Assembly (NCBI GenBank): GCA_016192455.1
Contig: JACPUC010000030.1
Span: 62,001-126,000, forward strand
Length of the DNA: 64,000 nt
Source of the DNA: Candidatus Tectimicrobiota bacterium
GTDB lineage: Bacteria > JACPUC01
Direction of reading: 5' to 3'
The notes below the pieces were generated by a model. That model was not told where the DNA came from, did not search any database, and was given only the letters and a program-made list of their open reading frames with translations. Of the stretch, positions 36,660-57,259 are shown in pieces (positions within the stretch are counted from its first letter, which is position 1; every line of letters begins with the position of its first letter). The translations under genes and the position numbers were made by a program.

Positions 36660-38205
<1,546 letters not shown>

Positions 38206-38624
38206 TCGCTGGTTGGTAGGTGAAGTGTAGGCCGCGCGCGCCGCAAAATCAAGCACGGAGTGCGGCATGCGGGGCCTCGCCGCGATACCCGGCCAGCGGC
38301 GCATGCTGAGCGGTCGCACGGCGCCGCCGACGCGCCTCGAGTCTTCGGCGGCACGAGACCAGCGAGCGCCGAGGCCCACTGCTTTCTCCCGGCCATCCCC
38401 CCAACACTCGCCCCCCAGCCCCGCGCCGATCTCCCATGGCGGGGTGTCCGCCGTTGCGTTATCTTTAGCAAAACTCGCCGCCAGGACAGGCGGCGAGGTT
38501 CCTGGCGCTCCAACCCGACGACCGCAACGGCGAGTCTCTCAAGGCCGGCGCGGCGGTGGAGGGCTGGCGGTGGCGCGCTGTCCGCGCGCGGCGGAGCCTG
38601 CCGCCGGCGGGGAGGGAACGGGGC
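38206..38624. other. Divergent intergenic region
   Basis: 419 bp between the thiC leader and the divergent double-cupin gene. It contains the thiC promoter below. No gene seen. Confidence 0.5.
38224..38252 (-). promoter_or_regulatory. Probable thiC promoter
   Basis: On the minus strand TTGATT (38252-38247), 17-bp spacer, TACACT (38229-38224). Transcription would begin just before the TPP riboswitch, a good positional fit. Confidence 0.6.
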
Positions 38625-54477: not shown

Positions 54478-55065
54478 CTACTTCACCTCCGCGAGCAATT
54501 TCCTGAACAGCTTCAGCGACTCCTCGCCGTCCCACTGGCGGGGGCCGATGCCCATGCCGACGAGGTCGCCGCGGTGGTCGATGATGAAGGTGGTGGGGGT
54601 GCCCCGCACCATGTAGAGAATCTGCGCCGCCCCCTCCGGGTCGAGGAGGATTGGGAAGGGGATGGCGTGCTTCTTTACGAAGGGGGCCACCGCCGACTTC
54701 CCCTCGCGGTCGATGGCAACGCCCACCAGCACGAACTTGTCGTTCTTCAGGAGCTCCGACAGCTTGATGAGAGAGGCACGCTCTCGCGCGCAGTAGGGTC
54801 ACCAGGTGGCCCAGAAGTTGAGGAGCATCACCTTGCCCTTGAAGTCGCTCAGCTTCACCGTCTTGTCGTCGAGGTTCGGCAGCGCCACGTCCGGCGCCTG
54901 GATGCCGGGCGGCGCCGGGTGCAGACCGAGCGCGCCCAGCTCCTCCTTGTAGGGGTTCTCCGGAGTCGGCGGGGTCTCGGCGACCGCGCGCCGGCCAAGC
55001 AGGGCGAACGCGAGCAGCACGGCACACGCTACCAGAATGACGTTACGCCGCTGCACTGATGCCAT
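54478..55065 (-). CDS. TlpA-like thioredoxin, predicted selenoprotein (W-U-P-Y-C)
   Basis: Exported thioredoxin-fold protein of 195 residues if TGA 54801-54799 is read as selenocysteine. ATG 55065 follows AAGGAG. A hydrophobic leader (VILVACAVLLAFALLG) is followed by the TlpA/AhpC-type core: APDVALPNLDDKTVKLSDFKGKVMLLNFWATW, then U89-P-Y-C, then LIKLSELLKNDKFVLVGVAIDREG and RGTPTTFIIDHRGDLVG. In relatives the U position is the attacking Cys of W-C-P/x-x-C. The frame is otherwise intact to a TAG at 54480-54478. A SECIS-like hairpin lies 14 nt downstream. It would reduce disulphides or selenenyl/metal bonds in the periplasm. Confidence 0.85.
54771..54785 (-). promoter_or_regulatory. Putative bacterial SECIS hairpin in tlpA-like gene
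   Basis: GAGAG and CTCTC pair around the 5-nt loop CGUGC; the loop starts 18 nt after the UGA and has G as second base, as bacterial SECIS rules ask. Confidence 0.6.
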
Positions 55066-55316: not shown

Positions 55317-55910
55317 TCAATGCAGGGATTTCGGCCCCACGCGGATCACCGTCATCATGAGGTCGTCCTCGCCGATGCTCTTGATGGTGTGCCGCCAGTT
55401 CGTGGGGACGGTGAACCAGGAACCGGCCGGAACGGCTTTCACGACCTCCCCCTTGGCATCCATCAAAAGCCCCAGGCCCTGCTCGATGTAGCAAATCTCC
55501 GTGGTGCTCATGATCCCCACATTTCCCCCGTTGGGGATGCGCGCCTTGCGGACGGAGAACCAGACGTCATTGCCGAAGTCGACCTTGGCGATGAGCTTCG
55601 CAAAGAACTTCTCTCCCATGCCGGTCGGCTGAAAGGGGAGGGCTTCATCGGGAAGCACGACCTGCTTCTCGAAGCTGCTGATGAGGAGGTCGGGGTCGGG
55701 CACCTTGCCCATCTCCATCGTAGGCATTGGTGGTGTGCGCATCGGTTGCCCGGCGTCGGGTTGCATGCTCTGCATCGGCTGCTGCATCGGCATGGACGAG
55801 GGCGCGCCCGGTTGTCTGCGCGGCATGCTCGGCATTCCCTGCGCCAAGACGCCCGCGGAGCCGAGCCACACCACGAGCATTCCCACCACACTCGCGAGAA
55901 CCCCCCTCAT
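55317..55910 (-). CDS. Exported Met/Pro-rich cupin-type protein
   Basis: 197-residue secreted protein. ATG 55910 follows AGGGGAG and opens a signal peptide (GVLASVVGMLVVWLGSAGVLAQ). The next 45 residues are Met-, Pro- and Gln-rich (about ten Met, with PMQQPMQSMQP and PMPTMEM), suitable for binding soft metals such as copper, silver or mercury (inference). The C-terminal 120 residues form a single cupin barrel: NVGIMSTTEICYIEQGLGLLMD and AGSWFTVPTNWRHTIKSI. It is encoded 49 bp after the MerP-like selenoprotein gene on the same strand. Confidence 0.75.
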   Translation of the reverse strand: MRGVLASVVGMLVVWLGSAGVLAQGMPSMPRRQPGAPSSMPMQQPMQSMQPDAGQPMRTPPMPTMEMGKVPDPDLLISSFEKQVVLPDEALPFQPTGMGEKFFAKLIAKVDFGNDVWFSVRKARIPNGGNVGIMSTTEICYIEQGLGLLMDAKGEVVKAVPAGSWFTVPTNWRHTIKSIGEDDLMMTVIRVGPKSLH

Positions 55911-55961: not shown

Positions 55962-56282
55962 TTACTCTCCGGCGGGTTTCTCCGCGGCCCCTCCGGGATC
56001 GCTGGACAGAACGCCGGCCCGGAACCCCACGGACCTGAGGGCGGCGATCATCTGCGCCGCGCCGACGCGGGCTGGGTCGAATGCCACCTCGGCCTTCGCC
56101 TCGCGCAAGCTCACCTGCGCCTTCTCAACTCCGTCGAGCCTCTCCAAGGCTCGTTGAGCGATGATCACTCACGTCCCTCACGTCAGCCCCTCGACGCGCA
56201 GGCTCAGGTTCTCCGCCAGCGCGGCGGCGCTGCCGAGACCGAGGATGCTGGCCGCCAAGAGCAGCGTGACCCAGGTGCGCAT
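55962..56282 (-). CDS. Periplasmic MerP-like metal-binding protein, predicted selenoprotein (T-U-G-T-U)
   Basis: 106-residue exported HMA-domain protein if two TGA codons (56180-56178 and 56171-56169) are read as selenocysteine. It has a signal peptide, MRTWVTLLLAASILGLGSAAALA, then L-S-L-R-V-E-G-L-T-U35-G-T-U38, followed by the standard HMA helix and strands: ALERLDGVEKAQVSLREAKA and EVAFDPARVGAAQMIAALRSVGF. The family has G-M-T-C-x-x-C at that spot, so both metal ligands are replaced. The only hairpin downstream lies 22 nt after the second UGA and 31 nt after the first, within range of both. It should capture Hg(II) or another soft metal and hand it to MerT. The gene starts 2 bp after the zinc-ribbon gene stop. 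Confidence 0.85.
56135..56153 (-). promoter_or_regulatory. Putative bacterial SECIS hairpin in merP-like gene
   Basis: CGAGCCU and AGGCUCG form a perfect 7-bp stem with loop UGGAG (G second). The loop begins 22 nt after the second UGA, 31 nt after the first. Confidence 0.7.
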
Positions 56283-56284
56283 GC

Positions 56285-56569
56285 TCACTCCTCCCTCTCC
56301 AGGGCGAAGACGCCGTAGGCATGCAGCAGGCGAAACGTCTCGCCGCAGTGCTCGAGGCGGTCGCCCGCGGCGGCCTCATCCGGCAGGGTGAGCATGGTCC
56401 CGCACGCCGGACAGCTCGCGCGCTTGACGATCATGAGGCCGTACCGACCGTGTCGCTCCGAAACTCGGAACAGGAGCCCGGCTCAGTTGGCGCACTCGAA
56501 GCCCTCGCCCGGGCGCGCCCGCGGCCCAAGCTCGACCTCTTGCCCTCAGCCAGGACAGAGCGCCTTCAT
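56285..56569 (-). CDS. Small zinc-ribbon protein, predicted selenoprotein (C-P-G-U, C-A-N-U)
   Basis: 94-residue cytoplasmic protein if TGA 56548-56546 and 56485-56483 are selenocysteine. ATG 56569 follows GGGAGG. It begins M-K-A-L-C5-P-G-U8-G-Q-E-V and continues G-F-E-C26-A-N-U29-A-G-L-L-F, so in both knuckles of an otherwise ordinary zinc ribbon the second Cys is Sec. A second cluster, C53-P-A-C56 and H74-C75-G, is all cysteine. The frame is open to a TGA at 56287-56285 that is the natural stop, as the next gene starts 2 bp on. Both Sec codons have plausible hairpins downstream. It could be a metal sensor, chaperone or mercury trap. Confidence 0.8.
56455..56471 (-). promoter_or_regulatory. 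Putative bacterial SECIS hairpin for U29 of the zinc-ribbon gene
   Basis: GUUCCG and CGGAGC pair (one G-U) around loop AGUUU, G second; the loop starts 17 nt after the UGA. Confidence 0.6.
56508..56530 (-). promoter_or_regulatory. Putative bacterial SECIS hairpin for U8 of the zinc-ribbon gene
   Basis: CUUGGGC and GCCCGGG pair (two G-U) around a 9-nt loop, CGCGGGCGC, starting 22 nt after the UGA. The region is so GC-rich that competing folds exist. Confidence 0.45.
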
Positions 56570-56600: not shown

Positions 56601-56834
56601 CTACAGGTGCAGGAGCTGCTTCAGCCGCCCCAGGTCGAAGCCCACGACCACCTCGTCGTCCACTGTGATCACCGGCACGGCAAGCCGACCCGTCTTCGCC
56701 TTCAGCTCGGCGATGGCGCCTTGGTCCGCTTCGACGTTCCGCTCCACGAAGGCGATCTGGTTCTGTGAAAGGAACTCTTTCACCTGTTTGCAGGGCCTTC
56801 ACGTAGGGCTGGTAAAGACCATGACGTTGGGCAT
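56601..56834 (-). CDS. Glutaredoxin-like protein, predicted selenoprotein (T-U-R-P-C)
   Basis: 77-residue glutaredoxin/NrdH-type protein if TGA 56801-56799 is read as selenocysteine. ATG 56834 follows GAGGGAG. M-P-N-V-M-V-F-T-S-P-T-U12-R-P-C15 is the usual N-terminus with Sec in place of the first redox Cys. The rest, KEFLSQNQIAFVERNVEA, then PVITVDDEVVVGFDLGRLKQLL, carries the TVP-type cis-proline and family C-terminus. A strong hairpin (7 bp) follows. It sits between the MerT-like and zinc-ribbon genes. It would act as reductant for selenols or for a mercury-selenol complex (inference). Confidence 0.87.
56765..56783 (-). promoter_or_regulatory. Putative bacterial SECIS hairpin in glutaredoxin-like gene
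   Basis: GUGAAAG and CUUUCAC form a perfect 7-bp stem with loop AGUUC (G second), 22 nt after the UGA. The cleanest SECIS candidate of the cluster. Confidence 0.75.
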
Positions 56835-56875: not shown

Positions 56876-57259
56876 TCAGTTCATCGCGCCTTGCAGCAGC
56901 GCGGCGGTTGCGTCCGGGAAGAGATCGAGCGCCAGCGCCGCCAGCAGCGCCAGGGTGGCGCCCAGCAGCATAACGAGGTTGAGGCGCGCCCCGATGAAGC
57001 GGCATGCCACCGCGCGGCAGCGTCGGCGCTCCCTGAAGTATAACGCATACGAGCCAAGAACTCCGAACACGCCGGCTGGCAGGAAGATGGAACGGTACTG
57101 CATCGTCGTGCCCATGAACGCCCCTGTCCCAAGCCCCGTGAGCACGACGAGAAGCGGCAGGACGCAGCAGAGCGAGGCGACGAAGGCCGCCCCTAGGCTC
57201 ACCGCGCCCACTCCGAAAGCGCGCAGGCACTCTCGACCGGCATGCAGGGATACTCTCAT
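56876..57259 (-). CDS. MerT-like mercuric-ion membrane transporter
   Basis: 127-residue inner-membrane protein with three hydrophobic helices. The first holds the vicinal cysteine pair typical of MerT (GAAFVASLCCVLPLLVVLTG, C31-C32). The loop between helices 2 and 3 has C81-R-A-V-A-C86, matching the second cysteine pair of MerT. The third helix is NLVMLLGATLALLAALALDL. MerT takes Hg(II) from MerP and passes it inward. No Sec codons here. AGGGGA precedes ATG 57259. It is the first gene of the selenoprotein operon; MerR and MerA are not in the window. Confidence 0.82.
   Translation of the reverse strand: MRVSLHAGRECLRAFGVGAVSLGAAFVASLCCVLPLLVVLTGLGTGAFMGTTMQYRSIFLPAGVFGVLGSYALYFRERRRCRAVACRFIGARLNLVMLLGATLALLAALALDLFPDATAALLQGAMN

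Follow-up and report, generated by a model that had tools for sequence, protein, structure and literature searches.

We identified, on the minus strand of the window (the whole 64,000-nucleotide stretch of DNA analysed here), a gene for a MerP-like protein with selenocysteine (Sec) at both metal-ligand positions. In our reading, to which we give a probability of roughly 70%, this protein is a double selenoprotein decoded with one SECIS hairpin, and would act as a periplasmic soft-metal carrier handing its metal to a MerT-like transporter. Sec is known chiefly for its role in catalysis; two Sec residues forming a metal clamp would, if this reading is true, put selenium to a separate use and provide a high-affinity binder of soft metals that occurs in nature.

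The UxxU HMA gene and its product

The gene and the elements within it are located as follows.
55962..56282, minus strand: UxxU HMA (MerP-like) selenoprotein gene, 106 aa with TAA stop (from translation, PF00403 and NF041115)
56178..56180, minus strand: UGA1, Sec35, first ligand position (from translation)
56169..56171, minus strand: UGA2, Sec38, second ligand position (from translation)
56135..56153, minus strand: putative bacterial SECIS hairpin, CGAGCCUU-GGA-GAGGCUCG (from local fold and comparison)

The original prediction left the strand unstated. Translation of the minus strand (56282-55962), with TGA read as U, gives MRTWVTLLLAASILGLGSAAALA-ENLSLRVEGLTUGTUVIIAQRALERLDGVEK... up to the stop codon, and bears out the signal peptide and the HMA domain with GLTUGTU that had been described; the plus-strand reading of 55962-56282 gave no relevant product and was rejected. 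The frame contains exactly two TGAs, 9 nt apart, at U35 and U38, which align with the CxxC of HMA domains and are retained in relatives, in agreement with the proposal that both ligand positions are Sec. The N-terminus is signal-peptide-like, ending ALA/E as judged by eye, and residues 28-87 match the Pfam HMA domain PF00403 with 40.9 bits (gathering cut-off, 24.8). The AlphaFold model, with a pLDDT of about 95 over the HMA domain, has the beta-alpha-beta-beta-alpha-beta HMA fold; it superposes on CopZ and oxidised MerP (TM 0.93-0.95) and also on copper-ATPase domains, the best fold matches being metal carriers.

The window's own genome encodes the machinery for Sec insertion, namely, tRNA-Sec (75.5 bits, over the Rfam cut-off), SelB (366 bits) directly beside SelA (596 bits), and a SelD that itself carries one in-frame TGA. 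TGA is also a normal stop codon in this genome, for example at the end of the zinc-ribbon gene described below, and the Cys codons in this gene group are TGC and TGT; a general reassignment of TGA was rejected on these grounds. Because TGA ends ordinary genes too, recoding is site-specific at the Sec codons. With UGAs at positions occupied by Cys in homologues, and with the Sec machinery present in the genome, Sec decoding of the UxxU gene is well supported.

Relationship to known families

The UxxU protein is a further case of the already catalogued family NF041115 (UxxU_metal_bind), which it matches at positions 1-73/74 with 108.5 bits against a curated cut-off of 95. A whole-genome read-through search with the same model returned 95 bits with two TGAs, and all 10 aligned relatives match the model. 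The UxxU in the metal loop that marks this family is present as U35 and U38, and in its HMA-type domain, its UxxU and its two Sec nothing separates the window protein from the family; the window copy is free-standing and exported, and lies in a four-selenoprotein cluster absent from the family entry. The UxxU site is not unprecedented, since such sites are already catalogued in reviews, have their own model in NF041115 and occur in several phyla. Reviews reportedly trace UxxU metal-binding proteins to an earlier study of an Olavius symbiont (2007). An NF041115-type protein with UxxU and two Sec is listed as 'Metal-binding protein (putative mercuric reductase)' (PMC13188914), a UxxU protein (CAB1070815.1) appears as 'Putative mercuric reductase' (PMC9312934), and MerP-like selenoproteins were counted in ocean metagenomes (PMC2398784).

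The description as a MerP-like carrier stands for the fold but not for strict MerP membership. The window protein shares with MerP (TIGR02052; 1AFI, 1OSD) the signal peptide, the single HMA domain, the fold and a MerT-like gene in the group, whereas it has Sec for both Cys ligands, scores 50.1 bits against the equivalog cut-off of 92.55, and lies in a gene group with neither merA nor merR. Scores with CopZ models were 50-51 bits, below cut-offs of 85-95; the HMA domains of CopZ and CopA share the fold and the ligand spacing, but carry CxxC. The MerT/CopZ fusion-like selenoprotein family NF045683 (33.3 bits; cut-off, 375) and Sec-containing MerT (PF02411, C/SxxU; PMC13188914) likewise place Sec in a MerT/HMA transport system; in the window, however, the Sec lies in the HMA protein, and MerT is a separate protein without Sec.

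A candidate SECIS hairpin probably serving two UGA codons

The hairpin CGAGCCUUGGAGAGGCUCG lies within the gene at 56153-56135 (CGAGCC-UUGGAGA-GGCUCG), with alternative apices formed by a 5-nt UGGAG loop (-10.2 kcal/mol) or a 3-nt GGA loop (-11.1 kcal/mol). Its apex, taken as the 3-nt GGA loop, is 32 nt past UGA1 and 23 nt past UGA2. The published rule for bacterial SECIS (bSECIS) elements, a spacing of 16-37 nt and G in the first loop positions (PMC13188914), is satisfied for both UGAs by this one hairpin (-11.1 kcal/mol), and the two close Sec codons do not pose the special decoding problem that had been expected of them.

When a bSECIS-type hairpin was called at a stem of at least 5 and an energy of at most -7.5 kcal/mol, it was found in 10 of 11 UxxU, 4 of 6 UxxC and 2 of 59 CxxC HMA genes (2 of 32 among CxxC genes with GC of at least 55%), counts that are not independent, because the genes share ancestry. 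Synonymous recoding (300 recodings) gave p=0.003 for the hairpin of the window gene and p=0.02-0.09 for the other UxxU genes, and showed no excess in the CxxC set; these single-gene values, mostly 0.003-0.09, are not to be multiplied, and the RALEGL peptide favours part of the stem. With 10 of 11 UxxU against 2 of 59 CxxC genes, and p=0.003 for the window gene, the hairpin is more than a chance occurrence. The 8-pair stem was paired in 90.9% of the cells of an 11-sequence alignment, and pairing fell to 60% when the partner was slid by one column, the slid controls reaching at most 60%. Four of the eight pairs change on both sides, and one covarying pair couples a Leu codon (TTG or CTG) with an Arg/Gly codon (AGG or GGG). 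For 91 nt around the Sec codons, the RNAfold z-value of -1.26 was unremarkable, and folding just the 60 nt that follow UGA1 gave a minimum-energy structure in which the hairpin was not intact; the argument therefore builds on the local hairpin and on comparison rather than on overall fold energy. An Rfam scan at gathering thresholds detected no SECIS family in the UxxU gene region.

The predicted arrangement, two TGAs 9 nt apart with one shared hairpin, proved exact in its spacing, the hairpin is present, and comparison with related and neighbouring genes indicates that it most likely serves both UGAs. The UxxC genes of L076 and L059, which have UGA1 only, carry the hairpin likewise 32 nt away, and this distance thus appears workable for UGA1 alone. 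The 23-nt spacing of UGA2 equals that in the neighbouring single-Sec Grx gene. In the zinc-ribbon gene, by contrast, the UGAs are 63 nt apart and each has its own hairpin, which supports sharing in the UxxU gene. The Nitrospinae copies contain a second candidate hairpin of 7 bp (CCGUCUU-GGUC-AAGACGG) that could serve UGA1, so that some lineages may not share one hairpin between the UGAs, and in the UxxU copy of G190 the strongest downstream hairpin lies 9 nt further on.

Two UGAs in a row must lower the yield, and Sec1 is constant in all Sec forms, as the UxxC genes show. Both points would fit a situation in which only one UGA, probably UGA1, is decoded efficiently, with UGA2 giving mostly termination or another residue and full-length protein being scarce. 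This seems to us rather improbable, because UGA2 stands at 23 nt, a spacing common to all Sec-Grx relatives examined, and in UxxU genes the HMA sequence beyond it is constrained at the protein level: most substitutions following the second ligand codon fall at third positions, and the region is therefore translated. In the preferred reading, with both UGAs decoded, the SelB-bound SECIS hairpin downstream would support Sec insertion at each UGA on its reaching the A site. The UxxU/UxxC/CxxC series with its fixed hairpin position offers a natural test of the reach of one bacterial SECIS over two UGAs.

Conservation of UxxU among relatives

Relatives were collected by one scan of genome contigs with an alignment of Sec-free MerT (A1) as bait, because they were not to be chosen by their Sec; the MerTs used to build the bait were UxxU-linked, so that the sample speaks for this MerT subfamily and not for HMA proteins in general. 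The scan yielded 14 loci from NC10/Methylomirabilota, Rokubacteria, Nitrospinae and Acidobacteria. The MerT-linked HMA protein has UxxU in seven loci (L073, L074, L075, L077, L079, L081 and L084) and UxxC in four (L076, L078, L080 and L083), UxxU occurring in NC10/Methylomirabilota, Rokubacteria and Nitrospinae, and UxxC in Acidobacteria. The further UxxU HMA proteins for which a search had been suggested were thus found on genome contigs of several phyla. Cys homologues, suggested as a check within the operon, were found in part: UxxC in these four MerT-linked loci, but CxxC in none of the loci with an HMA gene next to a MerT of the bait subfamily. Two genomes of one genus (G072 and G193) kept UxxU, the matches of G193 and L074 being identical; G190 has UxxU, G107 has UxxC, and in G137 a variant spacing, UxxxU (GMTUPFTUP), is found close to a MerA-like reductase. 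A tblastn search of plasmids returned only distant HMA proteins of <60% identity.

In a poorly resolved tree of 76 HMA domains, 9 of 11 UxxU sequences grouped with one UxxC and one CxxC sequence and two UxxU sequences fell elsewhere, which suggests, but does not prove, that UxxU had more than one origin; in the same tree, the window protein grouped with a Methylomirabilota copy. A second, longer UxxU HMA gene (GMVUPVU) in the Nitrospinae locus (L074:2776-3280) has an unrelated hairpin sequence, which suggests an independent origin of its UxxU.

TGA also serves as a normal stop here, at the end of the zinc-ribbon gene, as would suit chance TGAs in a decaying gene or a sequencing or assembly error. 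The same two TGA positions, however, recur in independent assemblies of several phyla, the hairpin covaries, the neighbouring genes have their Sec codons at Cys positions, and the Sec and Cys homologues are intact rather than broken in frame. This explanation, of negligible probability, is refuted by conservation.

The gene cluster

The minus-strand order of the genes is MerT - Grx (UxxC) - zinc ribbon (CPGU...CANU) - UxxU HMA - cupin - TlpA (UPYC). The genes flanking the UxxU HMA gene are as follows.
56876..57259, minus strand: MerT-like membrane protein (SLCCVLPL, RRRCRAVACR), no Sec
56601..56834, minus strand: NrdH/Grx-like selenoprotein, TURPC (UxxC), UGA at 56801-56799, hairpin loop 22-23 nt downstream
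56285..56569, minus strand: tandem zinc ribbon, CPGU and CANU, Sec8 and Sec29 (56548-56546 and 56485-56483)
55317..55910, minus strand: exported cupin-like protein (by eye), no Sec, no family match
54478..55065, minus strand: TlpA/ResA-like thiol-disulfide oxidoreductase, WATWUPYC, UGA at 54801-54799

Four genes of the cluster together contain six candidate Sec codons, all at positions where Cys is expected. Candidate bSECIS-type hairpins follow each UGA of the cluster, those of Grx (-6.4) and TlpA (-4.0) missing the -7.5 limit; the Grx hairpin loop lies 23 nt after the UGA in 9/9 relatives examined. The MerT-like protein scores 26.5 bits against the MerT cut-off of 150. No MerA gene adjoins the window operon, the genome's best MerA-like match lying elsewhere and below the cut-off. 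Just 2 nt separate the zinc-ribbon stop codon from the HMA start codon. A promoter scan of the gene group found none, and terminator-like sites were at chance level; the operon boundaries are thus drawn from spacing and strand.

The cluster points to an apparently uncatalogued zinc-ribbon selenoprotein. The zinc ribbon scored below all curated NCBIfam cut-offs, and we found no report of a zinc-ribbon selenoprotein in the open-access literature; the four-selenoprotein group, the double-Sec tandem zinc ribbon and the shared-SECIS comparison were likewise not found in the published selenoprotein catalogues consulted. Homologues of the zinc ribbon in NC10/Rokubacteria have CKGU or CQGU plus CPNU (L073:2870-3145, L077:4693-4959 and L085:4708-4986), and those in Nitrospinae and Acidobacteria have CxxC at both places. 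In the NC10 zinc ribbons, the third knuckle is changed from CxxC to CAVG.

Proposed role

After export, the selenolate pair would bind a soft thiophilic ion, with Hg(II) as the best guess and Cu(I) or Ag(I) also possible; Hg(II) is favoured because of the MerT/MerF company. From selenium chemistry, binding of Hg, Ag or Cu by a Sec pair would be very strong. The bound metal may then be passed to the MerT-like transporter of this gene group. By analogy with their families, the Sec-Grx and zinc-ribbon proteins would probably have a receiving or reducing function on the cytoplasmic side, and Sec-TlpA would probably keep the exported selenols reduced, these three roles being guesses. Indirect support for a metal-carrier role comes from the MerT linkage, which the bait imposes on its own loci but which had already been noticed, independently of it, in the window and in G072 (NF041115 search), from the MerF, MerR and ArsR genes beside the L074 copy, and from sigma/anti-sigma genes in NC10/Rokubacteria loci (zf-HC2 anti-sigma genes upstream in L077, L081 and L084; an ECF sigma factor confirmed in L077).

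On chemical grounds, a diselenide would form easily within UxxU, and two of the three other operon selenoproteins are thiol-disulfide oxidoreductases. Redox proteins make up the majority of known bacterial selenoproteins, and 82% of those in the ocean set (PMC2398784). The UxxU pair might accordingly be a redox centre that cycles between selenol and diselenide with Grx and TlpA and carries no metal. We consider this unlikely, since the HMA ligands occupy the metal-loop position, the best fold matches of the predicted model are metal carriers, and the gene is linked to MerT and, in L074, also to MerF, MerR and ArsR. Beyond the carrier itself, the UxxU carrier, Sec-Grx, double-Sec zinc ribbon (CPGU/CANU) and Sec-TlpA seen in the sequence may act one after another in a resistance pathway for soft metals, Hg(II) or Cu/Ag, rebuilt in selenium, with one SECIS decoding two UGAs three codons apart; this wider proposal is tentative, and we place it somewhat below even odds.

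Several further observations were made in the course of the analysis. The arrangement of regulators, with sigma/anti-sigma genes upstream of Sec metal genes, is unusual among mer-like systems. In L058 (G137:C19), the UxxxU HMA (GMTUPFTUP) occurs twice, after a MerT-like domain and beside a MerA-like reductase, in surroundings that include a Sec-Grx and a Cys zinc ribbon. L060 (G097:C64) contains a two-domain HMA protein with CxxU (WMLCEKU), grouped with Sec-Grx, MerT-like and TlpA-like genes. A MerA/dihydrolipoamide-dehydrogenase-like flavoprotein (L116, G000:C22:15159-16484) has Sec for the second redox Cys (SCVNSGU), the codon being followed by a hairpin of -10.9 kcal/mol. Elsewhere in the window, a TPP riboswitch over the Rfam cut-off was detected at 38098-38209 on the minus strand.
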